Positions 6,048 to 30,399 of a stretch of DNA of 32,409 nt are shown here, piece after piece. A program made the position numbers and the translations under genes. The first letter of the stretch is position 1. Each line of letters opens with the position of its first letter. The stretch lies in the IMG/VR virus record IMGVR_UViG_3300010885_008273, positions 1-32,409 of that record; one strand, written 5' to 3'. Origin of the DNA: a virus. Below the pieces are notes generated by a model. The model did no database searches and was not told the DNA's origin. It saw only the letters and a program-made list of their open reading frames with translations.

Positions 6048-6614
6048 ATGCGTATATTAATAGTAGAAGCCAGCTTAAAAGCTGTAAACAAACCCAGCAA
6101 CACACGAGTACTGTGTCGCGTGGCTAAACAAGCACTGGAACGCGAAGGCGCCGATGTTGTAGTACGGTCGCTCAAAGGCATGACTTACGACTTTAGCACA
6201 AACTTTGCAGCAGACGACGGCAGTGCAGATGATATGACGGCATTACTCAAAAGTGTAATTGATATGGACGCTGTTGTTATTGCTACCCCAATTTGGTGGG
6301 GTGTGCATAGCAGTTTAGCCCAAAGCTTTATCGAGCGCATGGACAACTTTGACGATTGGGCTAACGAACACAAAATTAACCCAATGGCTAAGAAAGTATT
6401 TGCTACCATAGTAAGCGGTAGTAGTGACGGCTTCCAACACATACACGGTATACATAACGCATTTGCTAGCTATCTGGGTTTCACAGCGCCACCTAAGAGT
6501 ATGCTAGAAAGCACCATCCAGGATGGTAAGAAGATTGAATCCGATCGGGAACTAGCAGAAAAAGCCAGTAACTGGGCAAAAAATATAGTACGCTGTATCA
6601 ACCAGCTAAATTAA
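6048..6614 (+). CDS. Flavodoxin-fold NAD(P)H-dependent FMN reductase-like protein
   Basis: A 188-aa protein with a flavodoxin-like fold. It has an N-terminal strand MRILIVEAS followed by a Ser/Asn/Thr-containing phosphate-binding region (residues 8-22), then MDAVVIATPIWWGVHSS (residues ~73-90), the typical 'D.vv.aTP.Yw' FMN-binding loop of the NADPH-dependent FMN reductase/quinone reductase family. Such enzymes reduce flavins or quinones, and some act in redox stress. It has its own late box just upstream, so it is probably made late or packaged. Downstream lie an unknown gene and Dps, so an oxidative-stress or iron-handling role is an inference from context. The family call is good; the substrate is unknown. 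Confidence 0.72.
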   Translation: MRILIVEASLKAVNKPSNTRVLCRVAKQALEREGADVVVRSLKGMTYDFSTNFAADDGSADDMTALLKSVIDMDAVVIATPIWWGVHSSLAQSFIERMDNFDDWANEHKINPMAKKVFATIVSGSSDGFQHIHGIHNAFASYLGFTAPPKSMLESTIQDGKKIESDRELAEKASNWAKNIVRCINQLN

Positions 6615-7257: not shown

Positions 7258-7278
7258 CAACACTAGCGGAGATTGTAT

Positions 7279-7719
7279 ATGGACGAACTAATTCAGCAAC
7301 TTAAGATTGCATTTTCAAACACATTTGTGTTCTATGTTAAGGCCTGGGGATATCACTGGAACGTAGAAGGAGCGGACTTTTACGAATTTCACAAATTGTT
7401 TGAAGAAATTTATTCGGAAGTACAAGGATCTGTTGACCCATTTGCCGAGCATATTCGTCAGCTACAAAGCTACGCACCAGGAACACTAGAGCGATTTAAG
7501 CAGCTCAGTCAAGTGCAAGAAAGCAGCAAGATTCCAAACGCACTTGAAATGGCAAGTGGTCTACTTGCAGAAAACGAAGTAATACTAAATTCTCTGCAAG
7601 CATCATATGATCTAGCAGAAACTAACAAGGAACATGCACTCAGCAACTTCCTCGCTGACAGAATGGAAGCGCACAAGAAGCATGCATGGTTCCTACGCAG
7701 CACACTAAAGACAAGATAA
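7279..7719 (+). CDS. dps: Dps-like ferritin (DNA starvation protection protein)
   Basis: The ATG at 7279 is chosen over the in-frame TTG at 7273 because the GGAG Shine-Dalgarno at 7268-7271 is 7 nt from the ATG. The 146-aa product is a four-helix ferritin-like protein. The Dps intersubunit ferroxidase residues are all present: H26, H38, D53 and E57, with the same spacing (12, 15, 4) as H51/H63/D78/E82 of E. coli Dps. HWNVEG matches the Dps signature. Dps binds iron, consumes peroxide and may coat DNA. No Lys-rich N-terminal tail is present, so DNA binding is uncertain. It has a late promoter, so it may protect new phage DNA or end up in virions. Confidence 0.88.
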   Translation: MDELIQQLKIAFSNTFVFYVKAWGYHWNVEGADFYEFHKLFEEIYSEVQGSVDPFAEHIRQLQSYAPGTLERFKQLSQVQESSKIPNALEMASGLLAENEVILNSLQASYDLAETNKEHALSNFLADRMEAHKKHAWFLRSTLKTR

Positions 7720-7733
7720 GGATTAACTAACTC

Positions 7734-9935
7734 ATGACAACTCAAGAAAACATGAAGAAATGGCTATCGGTAATTAATACACCGTCCACTAAAGAAAAAG
7801 GTATGATTACTGAAGACGTTGAAGGCGCACTAAAAACAATACACTCAGATGTATTAAGTCGCCCCGAGCCTACTGCTACTCCCGATAAGGTTACTGCACG
7901 GGTCGCTGGCGGCATGCGTGGAGTAAGTCATGATGAAGTGAAGAGCGGGTTTGATAGCCTTTCTAAAAAGAACGGATTTGCAGACTTTGCAGATGAATTA
8001 AATTCTGCAAAAGGCGCACACGACGAAGAGACACGTATTGCCGAAAACCTAGTTGACGAAGATGACATGGAAGAAGGCAACGAGTTTAGTGGCGCACTTG
8101 CTGCTGCTAAGATGCAACACAAGAAGTCATTCAAGGTAGATGGCAAGAACTATCAAGTAAAAGAAGGCGAGGATGCTTGCCCAGTGTGTGAAGCAATGCC
8201 GTGCGAATGCGATAATAAGGAAATGGTATCTGAGGAGTGGAGCGTTATATACGATTCTGCTTATGCTAAGAACGTACCGGCTCGTGTTCGTCTGAGTGCT
8301 GGTATGGATGAATCAGCAGTACGCGAATGGTTCAGTAAGGCATTTCAACCTTTGAGTATTCACGAAGTACTAATACGTAAACCAATAGATCCAAAAGATA
8401 AAAGTTTATCACCAATTGTTGAACCAAAGCAAGACACTGATCCATTTGGAGTGTTGAAGCCAAAGCCGAAGCCAAAGCCGAAGCCAAAGCCAGGTAAGAA
8501 GCCCAACAACGAACCCGAAGTGTACATGGGCGAAGAACAAATAGATGAAATTCTTCCAGCATTAGCTGCAGGCGCTGGAGCATTAGCTACAGGTGCTGCC
8601 CGTGTTGGTGGCGCAGTAGTACAGGGTGCAAAGGCTTTGGGCACTGCTGCAGTAAAAGGAGCACAAGCTGTAGGTAACGTAGTAGCTAAAGGCGCACAAG
8701 CTGCAGGTAACGTAGTAGCTAAAGGCGCACAAGCTGCAGGTAATATGGCAAGTAATGCAGTAGTCAAAGGCGCACAAGCTGCAGGCAATATGGCAAGTAA
8801 TGCAGTAGTCAAAGGTGCAAATGTTGCTGGACAAGCAGTTGGTTCTTTTGGTCAAGGTATGGCAAGTCAACAGCAGCCAGCGCCAGGACAACAGCAACAA
8901 CCACAACAAGCGCAACAACAGCAGATGCAGCAGAAACCAGGGCAAATGCCAGGTGCAGGTGGTCAGCAAAAATTCAAACCAGGCCCAATTCAGGTTGATA
9001 CAAAAAAGAAAATAATTATTACCCCAGCAGGTGCAATTCCATTTACTCAGATCATAACCAGAGAAGACCGCGAGCAACGTGGCGAAGACGAAAGTGAAGT
9101 TAAGTCTGCACTATCGGATATTCACGAAAAACTAGGCGGAGACTATGATCTAGACAAGCAGTACGATGCAATTCACGAAGTATCAGAAGAGTCAGGTATT
9201 TCTTATCGCAAGTTGCTAGGAGCATGGGTTACGGATCCGTTGGGCATGAAGGAAGCAATTAGTGCAGCAAAGGATGCTGCAGATGATACAGAAGAAATGC
9301 CAGCAGAGGAACCAGCACCTGCTGCACTACCTGCACCCGGTGACGAAACTGCACAACCTGAGCAGCCAGTACAAGAGTCTAGAAAGAAAAAAGCCAAAGT
9401 TATAAAAGAAGGTCATCAGGTCATGCTAGATGTGAGAGATGATCATGAAGTTCAAATGGCACAGTCACAACTGTACCAGATGGTAAAGAACGCAAGTGAC
9501 TTGCACAACATGCTTGACAGTATGGGCGAGCTAGAAGGTTGGGTACAGGCCAAGATTACTCTGGCAGCCGACTATATCAATCGTGTTAAGGATTATGTTG
9601 AGTACGAAATGGTTCGTGGTTCAACAGAACATCATGGCCATCGTTCACCTAACGACTTCTACGAAGATGATCCATTGCACGAAGCAAAGGATGACGATAA
9701 AGAAGATGATGCGGATGATGACAAGATCCCACACATTGTAATGCAACTACGTAAAGCTAAGGACGTAGATGGTAATCATAAAGTACGTTTTGAAGATGGG
9801 ACATCTCACTACGTATCAATGACAGTTATCAAGAACTTCTTAGAAAAGCATGACAAGCAAAAGCCTGCAGTAAAGGACACAATGGCACGTGACGCAATCA
9901 AGAGCCTCAAGCATCTCAAAGCACGAGCAGAGTAA
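7734..9935 (+). CDS. Large low-complexity virion-associated protein
   Basis: A 733-aa protein built of short conserved patches and low-complexity linkers. It has an N-terminal acidic region, a small Cys cluster CPVCEAMPCEC (residues ~149-159), a (KP)n stretch (~243-253), a hydrophobic Ala/Gly repeat zone with repeated KGAQAAGN units (~308-362), a Gln-rich zone (~377-400), an Ala/Pro/Glu linker, and a C-terminal helical part with LEGWVQAKITLAADYI (~600-615), a segment I associate with virion proteins of marine T4-like phages. The Ala/Gly repeat zone could be membrane-active. The gene follows dps by 14 nt. A capsid- or tail-internal role is inferred, not shown. Confidence 0.55.
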   Translation: MTTQENMKKWLSVINTPSTKEKGMITEDVEGALKTIHSDVLSRPEPTATPDKVTARVAGGMRGVSHDEVKSGFDSLSKKNGFADFADELNSAKGAHDEETRIAENLVDEDDMEEGNEFSGALAAAKMQHKKSFKVDGKNYQVKEGEDACPVCEAMPCECDNKEMVSEEWSVIYDSAYAKNVPARVRLSAGMDESAVREWFSKAFQPLSIHEVLIRKPIDPKDKSLSPIVEPKQDTDPFGVLKPKPKPKPKPKPGKKPNNEPEVYMGEEQIDEILPALAAGAGALATGAARVGGAVVQGAKALGTAAVKGAQAVGNVVAKGAQAAGNVVAKGAQAAGNMASNAVVKGAQAAGNMASNAVVKGANVAGQAVGSFGQGMASQQQPAPGQQQQPQQAQQQQMQQKPGQMPGAGGQQKFKPGPIQVDTKKKIIITPAGAIPFTQIITREDREQRGEDESEVKSALSDIHEKLGGDYDLDKQYDAIHEVSEESGISYRKLLGAWVTDPLGMKEAISAAKDAADDTEEMPAEEPAPAALPAPGDETAQPEQPVQESRKKKAKVIKEGHQVMLDVRDDHEVQMAQSQLYQMVKNASDLHNMLDSMGELEGWVQAKITLAADYINRVKDYVEYEMVRGSTEHHGHRSPNDFYEDDPLHEAKDDDKEDDADDDKIPHIVMQLRKAKDVDGNHKVRFEDGTSHYVSMTVIKNFLEKHDKQKPAVKDTMARDAIKSLKHLKARAE
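8448..8502 (+). repeat. Lys-Pro coding microsatellite (12-nt unit)
   Basis: Alternating AAGCCA/AAGCCG codon pairs repeat several times and encode (Lys-Pro)n within the 733-aa protein. Such units are prone to slippage. Confidence 0.6.
8654..8820 (+). repeat. In-frame tandem repeats encoding KGAQAAGN units
   Basis: Two kinds of unit occur in tandem: a 33-nt unit encoding KGAQAAGNVVA and a 45-nt unit encoding KGAQAAGNMASNAVV. The copies are nearly identical at DNA level, which suggests recent duplication. Confidence 0.7.
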
Positions 9936-9938
9936 CGC

Positions 9939-10733
9939 ATGAAGATACAAGAACTACTGCAAGAGATGAGTCAGAAGGCCGCTGAGAAGATGGGCGTATC
10001 TGTCACACGGGTCACTAAAAAAGACTTTAAAGAAATCAAAGACAAGTTGTCTAAGATACTACTTGCAGTGGGCGTCAAGCATGCCGACTGGACTATGGGC
10101 GGCGCGGGCATATGGGATGAAACACATCCATACTACGACCCAAACAATCGTAAAAAAGATTCTGGCGACATTGACATCATGCTAGATGAAAAAGATGTAC
10201 TAAGTGCATTTTCCGATAAGGACCTTAAAGGTAGCAAGCAGAAGTTGGCACAAGCTCTTACTGAGAAAGGTATCAAAAACAACGGAGCGTCACTTAACTG
10301 TGTTGTGAGATTTGATCAAGACAAGTTTGCACAAGTGGACCTAATTGTTAAACCTGATGCAGCCATTGCAATTAAAGGACATCAGATGGACTACTCCACT
10401 GATCCTACTATGCGCGGCGGAGACCTTTGGTTAGAAATATGGCCCACACTGATCAAGATGACACCTAGTCCCGTTAGCGGCAAGACAGAAATTGTTGACG
10501 CCAAGGGAAAGCCAAACAGTGCGCTACAGCTAAGTCCAGACAAGGGCGTAGTAGATCGTGAAACTGGCAGAGTCTTAGTTAGTTGGGCAGATAAGGATGG
10601 CGTTGCTAAACTTATGGTGGGCACACATGCGAATGGTCGCGACATATCCAGTATCTCAGGTTTGGAACGTGTGCTGAAAGTTGTTCCTAAGAAGTGGAAC
10701 GCAGTCAAGCATCTATTCCCACACAGTAAGTAA
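9939..10733 (+). CDS. Pol-beta-type nucleotidyltransferase, possible packaged protein
   Basis: A 264-aa protein with the hallmarks of the pol-beta nucleotidyltransferase superfamily: MGGAG (residues 53-57), the two-aspartate motif SGDIDIML (D77, D79), and a third Asp in QVDLIV (D134). These residues bind two metal ions for transfer of a nucleotide to a protein, RNA or small molecule. The N-terminus MKIQELLQEMS resembles a T4 capsid-targeting sequence (LLQE site). It starts 3 nt after the preceding stop and is followed 4 nt later by a gene with two more nucleotidyl-transfer domains. The substrate is unknown; a tRNA or protein target is possible. The superfamily call is good. Confidence 0.7.
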   Translation: MKIQELLQEMSQKAAEKMGVSVTRVTKKDFKEIKDKLSKILLAVGVKHADWTMGGAGIWDETHPYYDPNNRKKDSGDIDIMLDEKDVLSAFSDKDLKGSKQKLAQALTEKGIKNNGASLNCVVRFDQDKFAQVDLIVKPDAAIAIKGHQMDYSTDPTMRGGDLWLEIWPTLIKMTPSPVSGKTEIVDAKGKPNSALQLSPDKGVVDRETGRVLVSWADKDGVAKLMVGTHANGRDISSISGLERVLKVVPKKWNAVKHLFPHSK

Positions 10734-10737
10734 CAGC

Positions 10738-12498
10738 ATGAAAATATTTGAAGTATTGCAGCATAAAGCAAAGCGTACGCTGCTTGAAGCAGGTACAGCT
10801 CACATCGAGGACTGGGTCACAGAACCCGATGGTGGCAAGCGAGCGTTAGAAGCATTAGTTAATCTAGAAGCCAATCCGCAAGAACTGTCCATTAAATGGG
10901 ACGGCAGTGTAGGCATTGTATTTGGTCGTGATGCTGCAGGTAAGGTAGTATTTGTTGACCATTATCAATTTGCTAAAGTAGCCAAAGGCCAAGCAGAGTT
11001 TAGTACCATACGTGCATATGACGAACCACGTGGCGCTCAACGTGTAGAATTATGGGAAGCAGAGGACGCAATACGCCCTTTGCTAGAAAAGATTGTACCT
11101 AAGAAAGCAGACCAGTATTGGTTTGGCGACCTCATGTGGTATGGAAAACCAGACACAAAGAATGGCGAATACGTATTCCAGCCACGCACAGTAAAATACT
11201 CTGTGGGAGTGGAAACTCCACTTGGTAAGGACATTGCTCGTAGCAACGGCGGTATTGCTGTACACACATTCTTCCCTAGCTTAACATCGGCTAGTATTCC
11301 TCTACGTGGATTACAAGGGTTACGCGAAGGTGCAGGCATTGTGTTCTTTACGGGTGAGATGAAGGACACACCTAAGGTTACAATCGGCAAGCAACAGTTG
11401 TCCGCAGCCAAACGTACAGTTGCAAGTAATACAGACACTGTTAACAAGTTTATCAATGACCTTGCAGGCATGAAGGCCAAGACTGTGCTTACCGCAATGA
11501 GCAAGTTTATTTCACAAATGATTGACGAGAATGATGTAAGCTCTCGCATTGTGCCTCGCTTTATGGATTATCTCCAAGTACAACTAAGCCCTGCGGCAGC
11601 AAAGAAACTGCTGGGCGAAAACAAAGACGGTTGGCTATATCAAAAAGATGGAGCCAAAGGTCTTGAAGCATTGTGGGAAATGTGGGCTGTACTCACAGAT
11701 CTCAAGCTACATGTTAAACAACAAGTAGACAAGCAGGTAAAGAACAGCGCAGTGCATGCTGAGATCAACGGCGACGCCGGACATGAAGGCTATGTATTTG
11801 GTGGTGGTAATGTCAAGTTGGTAGACCGATTAGGTTTTACACGAGCATTGCGCGCCAAGTTTGCAGTGTCTCCGGAAGAGATTGCAACCAAGAGCACCAT
11901 GCCCAAAGCAGTATTTTGCTTTGGTAGAATGAATCCACCAACACTTGGACACAAGCAATTGATGCAAACTACTGTGGAAGCAGGTGGTGATAAGGCATTT
12001 ATATTCCTCAGCAGTACTGTTGATAATGATGAGAATCCGTTGGATCCACAAACCAAAGCAGAATTTATCAAACAGATCTATCCAGCATACGCAGGGAATA
12101 TTATATCGGGCGCATTCAAAACACCAATTGACGCAGCCAACTATCTATACGAACAGGGTTATCGTAACATGACCTTTGTGGGTGGATCGGATCGAATTGG
12201 TGCGGGACCAAAGAGTATCGAAAAACTACTCAACAGTTGGAACAGTGGTCTGGTGCGTACTACAGACTTTGCTCGTGGTCCAAAAGGACGCGAACATGTG
12301 GTGCTAAACTTTGCCAGCAGCGGCGAACGTGATCCAGACAGCAAGGGCGTAGAAGGTATTAGCGGCAGTAAGGCACGTGAAGCTGCAGCAGCCGGTGATG
12401 AAAAACGCTTCTTCCAATTAACAGGTGTGAACTCAAAACTGAAAGTAAAAGGCCAAACACTTTACCAAGCCACACGCAACGGCTTGGGGCTCAAATAG
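10738..12498 (+). CDS. Fusion: ligase-like nucleotidyltransferase domain + NMN/cytidylyl-type adenylyltransferase domain
   Basis: The start at 10738 is chosen because upstream in-frame codons lie inside the previous gene; the product is 586 aa. The N-terminal half contains KWDGS (residues 53-57), matching motif I (KxDG) of ATP-dependent DNA/RNA ligases and capping enzymes, followed by FGR and a WFGDLMWYG segment. The C-terminal part starts near residue 390 with FGRMNPPTLGH (T402-H405), the TxGH/HxGH motif of the NMNAT-type nucleotidylyltransferase superfamily, and has GGSDR and ISGSKAR (541-547), the ISxSxxR signature. NadM/NadR-like NAD synthesis or cytidylyl transfer is possible. The N-terminus ends in TLLE-A, a possible prohead-protease site. 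The substrate is unknown. Confidence 0.68.
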   Translation: MKIFEVLQHKAKRTLLEAGTAHIEDWVTEPDGGKRALEALVNLEANPQELSIKWDGSVGIVFGRDAAGKVVFVDHYQFAKVAKGQAEFSTIRAYDEPRGAQRVELWEAEDAIRPLLEKIVPKKADQYWFGDLMWYGKPDTKNGEYVFQPRTVKYSVGVETPLGKDIARSNGGIAVHTFFPSLTSASIPLRGLQGLREGAGIVFFTGEMKDTPKVTIGKQQLSAAKRTVASNTDTVNKFINDLAGMKAKTVLTAMSKFISQMIDENDVSSRIVPRFMDYLQVQLSPAAAKKLLGENKDGWLYQKDGAKGLEALWEMWAVLTDLKLHVKQQVDKQVKNSAVHAEINGDAGHEGYVFGGGNVKLVDRLGFTRALRAKFAVSPEEIATKSTMPKAVFCFGRMNPPTLGHKQLMQTTVEAGGDKAFIFLSSTVDNDENPLDPQTKAEFIKQIYPAYAGNIISGAFKTPIDAANYLYEQGYRNMTFVGGSDRIGAGPKSIEKLLNSWNSGLVRTTDFARGPKGREHVVLNFASSGERDPDSKGVEGISGSKAREAAAAGDEKRFFQLTGVNSKLKVKGQTLYQATRNGLGLK

Positions 12499-18536: not shown

Positions 18537-18562
18537 AGCCCCGCCTAGTGCGGGGCTTTTTT
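18537..18562 (+). terminator. Rho-independent terminator after the AAA+ gene
   Basis: AGCCCCGC (18537-18544), loop CTAGT, GCGGGGCT (18550-18557), then a run of T to 18562. It is the only classical intrinsic terminator in the window. The T-run overlaps the stop codon of the convergent gene. Confidence 0.95.
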
Positions 18563-19178
18563 ATAGACCTTTACTCAGTATTCGGTCTACTGCTTGAGCT
18601 TTTCTCATTGGATATATTTTATCCAAAATAGGGTTAGGATTTTTGGCTGCTTGGGCTGCAGCATAATCTCTATCTTGTGTGGGCTCTACCTTTTTGGCAT
18701 CCTTACTGATATCCCAATATACTACGGGATCATTGGTATAAGGATTGGGTTCTACTTCTCGAGTTATATTAGGCCACGCCAACTGTTGTTGCAGGCGTTT
18801 GGCTAGTGCACCATACAGTCGTATTCTGCTGGATGTTTTTTCAGTCTCGCCTTTGTCTGCAGGGGCACTGAAATGAATAGTGTTCACGCTGGGATTATTT
18901 TTGAGGAAATCCATTATGACAGCACCAACTGTAGCAAAGATTCTCTGTGCCTCCTGATAACTATCTTTGGTCTTTCCCAGGTCTAAACCGCGCGTCAGAG
19001 TGTAACGACCAAAACCAACTTCTACACGATTGTCTCCTCGTACATCAAATGATATCTGATAGCGTTTGAGTATACTGTTGGCACGGAACACATATTTTGC
19101 CATAGCGTATTTGGCTCTTGCCTGTCGCCATGGGTAGGGTTTATCAAGTGATTCCGTTATGAATTCTGTTGCCCGCAT
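18561..19178 (-). CDS. Unknown phage protein, possible packaged protein
   Basis: The ATG at 19178 is preferred to the one at 19211, because a minus-strand late box GCTAAATA (19183-19190) ends 4 nt before it. The ~205-aa product begins MRATEFITES, which resembles a T4 capsid-targeting sequence with a possible cleavage after ITE. The middle part has strands and helices (FGRYTLTRGLDLGKTKDS, IFATVGAVIMDFLK, INTIHFSAPAD-like, SSRIRLYGALAKRL), a pattern I associate with a conserved hypothetical family of T4-like phages. The last 40 residues are polar. It is convergent with the AAA+ gene and divergent from uvsW. Function unknown. Confidence 0.65.
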   Translation of the reverse strand: MRATEFITESLDKPYPWRQARAKYAMAKYVFRANSILKRYQISFDVRGDNRVEVGFGRYTLTRGLDLGKTKDSYQEAQRIFATVGAVIMDFLKNNPSVNTIHFSAPADKGETEKTSSRIRLYGALAKRLQQQLAWPNITREVEPNPYTNDPVVYWDISKDAKKVEPTQDRDYAAAQAAKNPNPILDKIYPMRKAQAVDRILSKGL

Positions 19179-19182
19179 GTGG

Positions 19183-19190
19183 TATTTAGC
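19183..19190 (-). promoter_or_regulatory. T4-type late promoter box (GCTAAATA), leaderless geometry
   Basis: On the minus strand GCTAAATA is followed by CCAC and then ATG (19178). The expected start site lies at or one base inside the ATG. Confidence 0.6.
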
Positions 19191-19248
19191 CCAACTATTA
19201 CGGCTATGCATCTTGCTTTAAATACATATACCTAGTACACTTGTATCT

Positions 19249-27251: not shown

Positions 27252-28088
27252 ATGAAGATTTCTGAATTTGCTGTTAAAGAACAAGAATTTCTCGATGAGA
27301 TAGGTGCAGTGCCGCTATGGAAGCGAGGCTTATATAAGCTAGGCGCAACACTTGGCAGTCAGAAAGCCTTAGGTAAGCTAGATGTAGCGCACGAAGCTAA
27401 CAATCTATACAAGCAGGTAAAGAAATGGATGGGGCAATCGGGCGAACGGGCCGTAAGCGCCAATGATCTCGTTAATGTAGTTAGCATCCAGCAAGGTAGA
27501 TTTGATCAGGGCATAATGAATACTGCTATACAGAAAGCAGGAATTGACGGTGATGCAAAATTAAGCATGCGCCAGCTGGGTAAAGTACTAGTTGGATATT
27601 TACAGCAGTCTTCTCGTAGAGATGCTGTAGCAAATCCACAAAGTGGAGGCAATCAGCAAGCTGCACAGGACCAGCCACAAACCGCTGCTCCCCAAGTACA
27701 ACCTACACCACAACTACAACCTACACCTCAGCAAGCAGCACCTGAACCACAACCTGCTGCACCTGCCCCGCAACCACAACCAGCACCCGCTGCGCCTGAA
27801 CCACAACCACAACCAGCACCTGCTGCACCTGCCCCGCAACCACAACCAGCACCCGCTGCGCCTGAACCACAACCACAACCAGCACCCGCTGCGCCTGAAC
27901 CACAACCAGCTGCTCCTAAACCCGAACGCCAAACAATTGCACAACGCGGGCAAGCAGCACAAGCAAGACAAGCTACACAAAAGGCAGGCGGCATGAAGAA
28001 ACTTGGCCCGCAGCAGGTTAAAATTGTCAAAGAAAGTATTGACGATCAAATTCTAAGTGAATTTGCTCAGAAACTAGATAACATCTAA
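27252..28088 (+). CDS. Pro/Gln/Ala-repeat virion protein, possible packaged protein
   Basis: A 278-aa protein. The N-terminus MKISEFAVKEQEFLDEIG resembles a T4 capsid-targeting sequence with a possible LDE site. Residues ~18-120 are a helical, charged domain (WKRGLYKLGATLGSQKALG). Residues ~135-222 are Pro/Gln/Ala-rich with four or five copies of the 11-aa unit AAPxPQPQPAP (169-222). The last 55 residues are basic, then end in ESIDDQILSEFAQKL, an ending seen in T4-like virion proteins. The late promoter and the low-complexity linker support a structural or internal head role. Function unknown. Confidence 0.6.
   Translation: MKISEFAVKEQEFLDEIGAVPLWKRGLYKLGATLGSQKALGKLDVAHEANNLYKQVKKWMGQSGERAVSANDLVNVVSIQQGRFDQGIMNTAIQKAGIDGDAKLSMRQLGKVLVGYLQQSSRRDAVANPQSGGNQQAAQDQPQTAAPQVQPTPQLQPTPQQAAPEPQPAAPAPQPQPAPAAPEPQPQPAPAAPAPQPQPAPAAPEPQPQPAPAAPEPQPAAPKPERQTIAQRGQAAQARQATQKAGGMKKLGPQQVKIVKESIDDQILSEFAQKLDNI
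27756..27917 (+). repeat. 33-nt tandem repeats encoding AAPxPQPQPAP
   Basis: About five copies of a 33-nt unit (GCACCTGCCCCGCAACCACA-type) in frame within the 27252-28088 gene. Copies are nearly identical, alternating Ala or Glu codons at one position, indicating a 66-nt higher-order unit. Confidence 0.75.
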
Positions 28089-28099
28089 GAGTAACATAT

Positions 28100-28402
28100 A
28101 TGAAGCGTAAAACTCGCAGCATACTTGAAGAGATTAATGACTTGGTACCAAATAAGAGTCGCCAGGAAGTAATCAATAGCCGTGCCAGTCACGTGCTGAG
28201 TAGTTTTATTAATTTTCTTGATAGCATTCACGAATCTTACGACCGCGAAACTGCAGAAAACCTAGAACGCAAGTTACTAAATGCAGTACGTGCGCGAGAT
28301 GCTAGTAAATTTACTAACAGTCTTCGTCGTATAGAAGAACAAGCAAGTGATGTCAGTGATACTGACCTTACTGAGTTCATTAAGAGTATTAAAAAGCTAT
28401 GA
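28100..28402 (+). CDS. Conserved hypothetical helical protein
   Basis: A 100-aa, strongly helical protein (MKRKTRSILEEINDLVP...). It has the run ESYDRETAENLERKLLNAVRARDASKF (given here in part: DRETAENLERKLLNAVRARD, residues ~50-69) and ends in a charged helix. I recognise it as a common small hypothetical in cyanophages and pelagiphages. The N-terminus contains ILEE-I, which could be a prohead-protease site. It overlaps the next gene by 4 nt (ATGA), so the two are coupled. Function unknown. Confidence 0.65.
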   Translation: MKRKTRSILEEINDLVPNKSRQEVINSRASHVLSSFINFLDSIHESYDRETAENLERKLLNAVRARDASKFTNSLRRIEEQASDVSDTDLTEFIKSIKKL

Positions 28403-30399
28403 GACTACACGATATACAAGTTAACGAGAATATGGCCAGCCGCGACCGCAATCATGGCGTAGAACATGAAGTAAACAATTTTGAAATACGTATCGACGGT
28501 CAACCTTGGAAGATATTGCCAGGTAAAGGTCCGGATGACAGTCCCGAACAGGTGCGTGAGGAAAATCGTATAGCAGGCATGTGCCAACGCAAAACTGCAG
28601 AGAGCGGCAAAGTATGGTCATGGCGATCAACTTCTCAGGAACCAAATGATACTATTACCCCTTCAGCTTCGACTGCGGTAACTACAAACTTTCAAGTCTT
28701 TATTAACGGTCGTTCGTGGCGAGTATTTAAGGGTGCAGGCCCAGACAATAGCCTTGCACAACGTAGTGAGATGGATAGATTAGAAAAAATGTGCAATCGA
28801 AAGAGTGTACAAACTGGGCGCAAATGGGAAGTCAAGCCAACTAAGGCAGAGCCAACTCCTGCTGGCCCACGCCCTCATATTACGGAAAAACAAATAAACA
28901 TGCCTGCACGTTTTAGTCCAGGTGATGAAGTCAGAGTCAAAGGTCATCCAGAACTATATGGCGTGCTAGTAAAGCTATTAGCCGACAATGCTGCGCTAGT
29001 AGATTTTGAAATTGATGATGGCCATGAGCCTGTTGGATCAGAAGTTGATCTAGCAGACCTAGAGCCAGCTACAGTACATGAAAGCAAAATGTCAAGACTT
29101 GACGCCGAGCTAGACAACCCAGAAATTGACGACGACATACATGATCCCAACATAAGTGACGAAGAGTTTGAAGACAAGTACGGCATGAGCAAGGAAATAG
29201 CTAAAATGTTCCGCGATGCTGCTATTAACGACAAACCCATTTTTGATCCAAAACACGACCGTTGGACTGAATATGGTGATCCAATACACGAACAGGATGT
29301 AGAAGAAAATACCGGTAATCAGATAGGCGGAGCGTTTGGTGCTATGGGTGCTGGATTTAGCGATGCTAAACTAGCCAAAGCAATAGTGTATTTTATGCAA
29401 GGTAGACACCAAGAAGGTGAACAATTTATCAGCATAGCACTTAGCAAAGCTGATCCAGCAGTTAAAGGAAAGATTCTGTCACAATTGAAATCCTTGCCTA
29501 AACTAAAGCCTGGGGTAGACCCTAACGATGATCCTGCTGCACAAAAGTATATTAACGATACAGTAATACCATGGATTAAAAAGCAACTAGGACAACGTGT
29601 GTCTGAAAAACTAGACGCTAATCAACGTCGTGCAGGACAAGCTGGACCAATGGAAGAGGGAACAGGAAACTCAGCAGATCCTAAATGGCATGGTAGCAAT
29701 GCTGACATGGAATGGTATGATGCTTACAAAGATCAGCCAATTCGTGTTAAAGTAAAGAATCACTCTGGTATTGGCGATGGCATATCTGGGACCTTCCTCG
29801 TCATAAAGTTTGAGAAAATTGATGCCACTAAAGCAACACTTACAATAAAATCACGCGACGGTGAGATGACAGCAACAGTAAACCTGGATAAGCCAGAGAC
29901 TGTATTAACTAAGCAGTATGACAGAGTCCCTGCAATGAAATTCTACATCGGTAGCATGCCAGCAACAGCTCGTCAAGCATTCAATCTGTTTCAACACAAG
30001 AATAACAAGAGTGAAGATGTATCCGAAGGCGACGTATTCTTTATTGAAATGGGCAACACACTGATCGAAACCACAGTGCTACGTGCCAATCACGACACTG
30101 TACTACTAGCTGCAGACAACGCAACAATGGCCATGCTAGATGCTTCCTCTATCATGGAAGCTGAATATCACGGACACAAGGTGCAATTGGGTAAACCCAT
30201 GCAGGGCGATGTTAAAAAATTTAAGGTCTATGTGAAGGATCCCAAGACTGGCAACATTAAGAAAGTAAACTTTGGCGATCCTAACATGCGCATCAAGAAG
30301 AGCAATCCTGCCCGCCGTAGAAGCTTCCGCGCACGTCATCACTGCGAAACTCCGGGACCAAGAACCAAAGCTCGTTATTGGTCTTGTAGGAAGTGGTAA
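28399..30399 (+). CDS. Large virion protein with duplicated N-terminal module and conserved C-terminal domain
   Basis: A 666-aa multi-module protein. Two ~50-aa repeats occupy residues ~27-75 and ~96-144: each has NF(E/Q)(I/V), a G(Q/R)(P/S)W, a G-x-GPD(D/N)S and an MC(Q/N)RK element. Then comes a linker, a small beta domain (FSPGDEVRVKGHPELYGVLVKL, ~170-200), an acidic segment, a helical middle with WHGSNADMEWYDAYK, and the last ~80 residues, containing KKFKVYVKDPKTGN, NFGDPNM and RARHHCETPGPRTKARYWSC. That C-terminal domain recurs in many T4-like marine phages. It is basic and could bind DNA. The stop codon abuts the next ATG. Role inferred as virion-internal. Confidence 0.58.
   Translation: MRLHDIQVNENMASRDRNHGVEHEVNNFEIRIDGQPWKILPGKGPDDSPEQVREENRIAGMCQRKTAESGKVWSWRSTSQEPNDTITPSASTAVTTNFQVFINGRSWRVFKGAGPDNSLAQRSEMDRLEKMCNRKSVQTGRKWEVKPTKAEPTPAGPRPHITEKQINMPARFSPGDEVRVKGHPELYGVLVKLLADNAALVDFEIDDGHEPVGSEVDLADLEPATVHESKMSRLDAELDNPEIDDDIHDPNISDEEFEDKYGMSKEIAKMFRDAAINDKPIFDPKHDRWTEYGDPIHEQDVEENTGNQIGGAFGAMGAGFSDAKLAKAIVYFMQGRHQEGEQFISIALSKADPAVKGKILSQLKSLPKLKPGVDPNDDPAAQKYINDTVIPWIKKQLGQRVSEKLDANQRRAGQAGPMEEGTGNSADPKWHGSNADMEWYDAYKDQPIRVKVKNHSGIGDGISGTFLVIKFEKIDATKATLTIKSRDGEMTATVNLDKPETVLTKQYDRVPAMKFYIGSMPATARQAFNLFQHKNNKSEDVSEGDVFFIEMGNTLIETTVLRANHDTVLLAADNATMAMLDASSIMEAEYHGHKVQLGKPMQGDVKKFKVYVKDPKTGNIKKVNFGDPNMRIKKSNPARRRSFRARHHCETPGPRTKARYWSCRKW

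Follow-up and report, generated by a model that had tools for sequence, protein, structure and literature searches.

Two adjacent genes in the 32,409-b stretch of viral DNA analysed here (the window) encode three different nucleotidyl-transfer domains, and together may constitute a module for nucleic-acid repair, delivered from the head in T4-like and other jumbo phages, in which a PolX-like polymerase and a ligase mend gaps and nicks in the entering genome or in RNA. The chances that this reading is correct are judged to be about even. The module would combine a minimal family-X-like polymerase, P0001, with a covalent-lysine nucleotidyltransferase, DUF6267, which is fused here to an NMNAT-like adenylyl- or cytidylyl-transferase in a single protein, P0002. 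The two genes are separated by 4 nt (Table 1). The open reading frames, the Pfam and PHROG matches and the conserved motifs agree with the initial annotation on the adjacency, the spacing and the three domains, and the alignments, in which a loss of catalytic residues was looked for, show these residues intact in all three.

Table 1. Features of the two genes, with coordinates in the window; a slash marks the putative cut.
Feature	Coordinates	Strand	Basis
P0001, PolX/Polbeta-like nucleotidyltransferase, 264 aa	9939..10733	+	AF2 model, Foldseek
Putative capsid-targeting N-terminus of P0001, MKIQELLQE/M	9939..9965	+	Comparison with T4 gp24, IPII/IPIII
PolX-type catalytic motif SGDID (S75-D79)	10161..10175	+	At least 90% conserved in alignment
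Third catalytic acid D134	10338..10340	+	At least 90% conserved in alignment
P0002, fusion protein of DUF6267 ligase-like and NMNAT-like domains, 586 aa from ATG at 10738	10738..12498	+	Pfam and PHROG matches
Capsid-targeting-type N-terminus of P0002, MKIFEVLQHKAKRTLLE/A	10738..10788	+	Pattern match, LLE/A after residue 17
DUF6267 domain, covalent nucleotidyltransferase (ligase)-like	10738..11865	+	AF2, PDB matches, KxDG profile
Motif I, K53-W-D-G56	10894..10905	+	Invariant in 61 sequences
Motif IV, E350-G351	11785..11790	+	Invariant in 61 sequences
Motif V, K360-L-V-D-R364	11815..11829	+	K360 invariant, R364 nearly so, in 61 sequences
NMNAT-like (HIGH superfamily) nucleotidyltransferase domain	11866..12495	+	PHROG cytidyltransferase, E 3e-33
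GRMNPPTLGH motif	11923..11952	+	Most positions invariant in 24-sequence alignment
ISGSKAR motif	12358..12378	+	S166 and R171 (alignment numbering) invariant

Genome setting of the gene pair

The window corresponds almost letter for letter to a section of a 265,892-b IMG/VR record (100% and 99.96% over the pieces), referred to below as the 266-kb genome. It also encodes gp32-like, UvsX-like and other replication proteins, and the neighbourhood of the pair consists of DNA replication and recombination genes such as gp32, UvsX and gp41. An ordinary DNA ligase gene is located elsewhere in the 266-kb genome, separate from DUF6267, which would thus be a second, specialised ligase.

Other features of the window lie around these genes. 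Three nucleotides upstream of the pair, 7734-9935 encodes a 733-aa low-complexity protein with alanine-rich repeats and a proline/lysine tract, and some DUF6267 relatives are likewise preceded by a long, apparently low-complexity protein. Just upstream, 6048-6614 and 7273-7719 encode an FMN-reductase-like flavoprotein and a Dps/ferritin-like DNA-binding protein, perhaps forming a stress-protection neighbourhood. The product of 2148-2738 on the minus strand has a PP-loop/QueC-like N-terminus, MEQQILVMYSGGLDSLG, and possibly represents a deazaguanine-pathway gene. Within the gene 27252-28088, a 98-bp stretch (27745-27908) matches itself at a shift of 66 bp with 92.9% identity. The T4-type late promoter TATAAATA has a single chance-level match, away from the two genes, and the PADLOC defence models gave no meaningful match.

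The PolX-like protein P0001

P0001 had been annotated as a pol-beta-type enzyme. It is indeed Polbeta-like, and the description can be refined, as its structure model resembles the core of a family-X polymerase rather than a generic nucleotidyltransferase. Its motif SGDIDIM supplies S75-G76-D77-x-D79, and these residues and D134 are at least 90% conserved among P0001 relatives in a 21-row alignment. Compared with the PDB by Foldseek, the AF2 model (pLDDT 76) has DNA polymerase lambda, mu or beta as all 50 of the 50 matches listed (prob 0.95-1.00, TM 0.3-0.44), a count to be read with the heavy representation of these three polymerases in the PDB. The palm DxD, the third acid and the PolX fold match, as in family X DNA polymerase, are therefore all present in P0001.

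Sequence comparisons are less informative. A profile of the sister alignment gave just four PDB matches, all to DNA polymerase beta (E about 0.8-1), and phmmer searches of the PDB with P0001 and with P0002 found none. P0001 has nothing above the Pfam cut-off, DNA_pol_B_palm lying below it at E 0.1, and the PolX-like family matches no PHROG at E<=0.01. Phage records held no match to P0001 and plasmid records only matches at E>=0.2, and single-protein searches of IMG/VR for close relatives retrieved no record but the 266-kb one to which the window belongs. Since there is no significant sequence or Pfam match, P0001 is called PolX-like and not a member of the family X DNA polymerases.

The ligase-like domain DUF6267 and the related KxDG family

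Residues 1-376 of P0002 correspond to Pfam DUF6267 (PF19782; aligned 22-370, E 5e-25, 89 bits against a cut-off of 27). In addition to the motifs in Table 1, H22, E24, D131, Y154, H176 and K323 are invariant among the 61 DUF6267 members. Motifs I, III (the acidic D131), IV and V of the ligase superfamily are all found, on or beside strands of the AF2 model, which covers the DUF6267 half alone (pLDDT 90, pTM 0.87). About 40 of the 50 PDB matches listed for this model, including ranks 1-6, are DNA, RNA or tRNA ligases; an archaeal RNA ligase is the nearest, and the others include the Thermococcus and AsfvLIG DNA ligases, T4 Rnl2 and tRNA ligases. The best match is weak (E 0.047, TM about 0.2), and hhalign comparisons of DUF6267 with T4 Rnl1, Rnl2, gp30 and other ligases were not significant; one DUF6267 member matches RNA_lig_T4_1 at E 0.01. 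The initial annotation placed the KWDGS region in a ligase-type fold. The fold neighbours are in keeping with this, although no single structural match is significant. The matches are singly weak yet consistent, and DUF6267 is accordingly predicted to be a ligase-superfamily domain.

A second, distant family of ligase-like proteins, named here for its KxDG motif, is also linked to Polbeta genes of the same family. A search with a Polbeta relative reached Flavobacterium phage immuto and the jumbo phages PA5oct, Atu_ph07 and Phosso, in all three of which the Polbeta gene has a KxDG protein gene adjoining it or near it. Twelve further IMG/VR loci were added, giving 15 in total. A Polbeta gene is near the KxDG gene in 14 of these, mostly with overlapping or touching ends; the exceptions are L115, where no Polbeta was found, and PA5oct, where two genes stand between. 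By profile, the KxDG family and DUF6267 match each other at E 2e-10, calculated for one comparison, and with a probability of about 97%; they have in common H..ED, KxDG, PNxIxY, EGxV and KxVD, and the DUF6267 model matches the PA5oct KxDG member in BFVD (E 8e-5, prob 1.00). Pfam RNA_ligase is matched by 5 of 12 KxDG members, the best at E 0.002, below the cut-off. The Polbeta gene of immuto precedes the gene for a 907-aa protein (L105:5908-8631), which joins another Polbeta domain to a weakly matched CTP_transf_like domain.

Several of these matches bear on RNA repair, in which the Polbeta enzyme would re-add nucleotides and the ligase mend tRNAs or other RNAs cleaved by the defences of the host, as has been proposed for RlaP with its RNA ligase. 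This explanation is judged unlikely, though it keeps appreciable weight. Its support comes from the archaeal RNA ligase as the nearest PDB structure, the RNA ligase matches of the KxDG relatives and of one DUF6267 member, and the RlaP-RNA ligase pairs known in jumbo phages, which likewise join a Polbeta enzyme to a ligase-type enzyme (PMC7824862). The pair in the window differs from the RlaP pairs, however, in that neither P0001 nor its relatives match the Pfam model of RlaP at E<=1, the fold neighbours of P0001 are gap-filling family-X DNA polymerases, and the ligase half is DUF6267; the location among DNA replication and recombination genes also argues against RNA. Because of the PolX-like fold and this setting, DNA is favoured as the substrate. 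Nucleic-acid repair, which was initially suggested for the pair, is the likely pathway.

Recurrence of the gene pair and its fusions

A search with the DUF6267 alignment yielded 80 IMG/VR loci, over whose open reading frames HMMs were iterated; the window brought the set to 81. A Polbeta gene stands beside DUF6267 or is fused to it in 25 of the 81, the window included, and seven of these are Polbeta-DUF6267 fusions (L022, L024, L027, L029, L032, L035 and L054). In most cyanophage-type loci the NMNAT-like gene comes after DUF6267, the two halves of P0002 thus being separate genes there; fusions of the two occur in the window, S-PM2, L067 and L072. The window and L042 are the only loci with all three domains. 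As short contigs account for many of the loci, gene absences are weak evidence.

The DUF6267 tree separates a polymerase-associated clade of 40 rows, in which the window occupies a long branch, from a second clade of 43 rows, whose loci commonly carry the NMNAT-like gene. By a quick method, the polymerase state changes 9 times and the NMNAT state 7 times on this tree, indicating that both associations recur; polymerase fusion requires about 3-4 changes on it. The gene layout recurs in dozens of loci, which excludes chance, and the repeated adjacency and fusions support the functional link that had been proposed for the domains.

Capsid-targeting-type N-termini

The internal proteins of T4 possess a conserved N-terminal capsid-targeting sequence, by way of which they are injected (PMC3012670). 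A fixed pattern, a hydrophobic residue-x-E followed by A, S, G or N near the N-terminus, was applied with internal positions as background; in T4 it matches IPI, IPII, IPIII, gp22, gp23 and gp24 but not Alt. Among relatives of the three domains, the pattern occurs in 30 of the 64 distinct DUF6267 N-termini (4.4% at internal positions, p 9e-24), 13 of 23 for the NMNAT-like domain (8.6%, p 7e-9) and 7 of 20 for Polbeta proteins (5.8%, p 9e-5), the p-values ignoring sequence relatedness. The whole proteome of the 266-kb genome, with heuristic start codons, has no significant excess (9.1% versus 6.8%, p 0.12). Packaging-type N-termini, which the initial annotation attributed to both proteins, are clear as sequence matches in P0002 and in relatives of both its domains, whereas the site in P0001 is imperfect, having M after the cut instead of A, S or G, and is close to MAKINELLRE/S of T4 gp24. 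Cyanophage DUF6267 proteins have no targeting sequence, while their NMNAT-like neighbours do.

A prohead protease gene is present in the 266-kb genome. In the PA5oct record the Polbeta homologue is annotated as 'structural protein, ESI-MS/MS', a mark that neither the KxDG protein nor a hypothetical protein at the place expected for the NMNAT-like gene carries; ribonucleotide reductase, too, appears among the proteins listed by that mass spectrometry, and cellular carry-over is therefore possible. No virion proteome covering cyanophage DUF6267 was present in the literature searched. Targeting-like N-termini also occur elsewhere in the window, at 18561-19211 on the minus strand (MRATEFITE/S), 27252-28088 (MKISEFAVKEQEFLDE/I), 28399-30399 (MRLHDIQVNE/N), 30400-31356 (MRAHELTEQTLEE/A) and 31376-32356 (TTQLDE/A), and these are perhaps more head-packaged proteins.

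Alternatively, the proteins might belong to the virion and use their folds for scaffolding, for binding DNA or for modifying small molecules, sugars or proteins, and not for joining nucleic acids. The sole PHROG label is 'cytidyltransferase', the activity of the module is a prediction, and some NMNAT-like homologues have long extensions with no recognised ligase or polymerase function, all of which would fit such proteins. The strict conservation of the catalytic residues of all three folds across large divergence makes this explanation rather improbable.

The NMNAT-like domain

Residues 377-586 of P0002 match PHROG 'cytidyltransferase' over 385-584 with the E-value given in Table 1, and GRxNPPxxGH and SxxxxR are kept in 24 NMNAT-like sequences. 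The (H/T)xGH and ISxSxxR motifs of NMNAT and NadM/NadR enzymes are present as TLGH and ISGSKAR, and the closest sensible PDB profile matches are NMNATs and NadR, the best (E 0.04) not being significant. An NMNAT-like protein at L065:1768-4320 carries in addition a P-loop kinase (Zeta_toxin/AAA_33) and DUF5824, an extension that recalls NadR or polynucleotide kinase. The idea that this domain makes NAD against NAD-depleting defences with the other two domains assisting, a form of the NAD synthesis or counter-defence suggested initially, draws on these motifs and weak profile matches, but it is unsupported and very improbable, as no recognisable NAPRTase or NAMPT is found in the 266-kb record, most polymerase-DUF6267 pairs have no such domain beside them and the profile matches fall short of significance.

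Relation to known systems

Among the closest known arrangements is the DUF6267/'cytidyltransferase' pair of T4-like cyanophages (T4-GC 71 and GC 190), in which the same two domains are neighbours near gp41 and uvsX; in Synechococcus phage S-PM2 they are fused as in the window. The window differs in having a PolX-like gene directly upstream and a DUF6267 of the other main clade. UniProt A0A6J5L7B8, a 599-aa protein of an uncultured Caudovirales phage, is 51% identical over DUF6267 and annotated as cytidyltransferase-like, and is therefore probably the same fusion. African swine fever virus uses a small PolX and a dedicated ligase as a repair pair. AsfvLIG is among the top fold matches of DUF6267, but this virus is unrelated and its pair has no demonstrable sequence homology to that of the window. 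T4 IPI-IPIII have an N-terminal targeting sequence ending in L or I, then x-E/A or similar, as in P0002. They are small, unlike the proteins in the window, and IPI* is an inhibitor of a restriction enzyme and not itself an enzyme (PMC3012670).

DUF6267, the cytidyltransferase label, their pairing in annotated cyanophages and the fusion architecture in databases are already known. The PolX-like family, its link to two ligase-like families, the reading of DUF6267 as a ligase and the head-targeting signal appear undescribed in the literature searched, which contained no paper mentioning 'DUF6267' and none on phage PolX.

Proposed function and implications

In the proposed head-delivered repair, N-terminal capsid-targeting sequences would draw the module proteins into the prohead, where the prohead protease would trim them; they would then be packaged together with the genome and enter the cell by injection. 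Short gaps would be filled by the PolX-like enzyme, and the ligase would take AMP on Lys53 and seal the nick. The target would most likely be incoming phage DNA bearing damage, packaging nicks or restriction cuts. Enzymatic activity, a DNA substrate, packaging in this phage and the action of the NMNAT-like domain are what we infer; for that domain, adenylate supply would be a guess. A broader proposal, put forward tentatively and with less than even prospects, is that in many T4-like and jumbo phages a PolX-like polymerase and a ligase of the DUF6267 or KxDG family, ready-made in the head, come in together with the genome and patch it before phage genes are expressed, while an NMNAT-like partner provides the adenylate donor or regenerates it.

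DUF6267 is found in hundreds of marine and jumbo phages with no assigned function, and its ligase reading and pairing with a PolX-like protein make that function accessible to direct testing. Should the enzymes be packaged in the head, phages might mend their DNA as soon as it enters, with a bearing on how they survive damage by sunlight in surface waters and evade restriction. Such a capsid-delivered gap-repair system, if true, would be one previously undescribed in phages.
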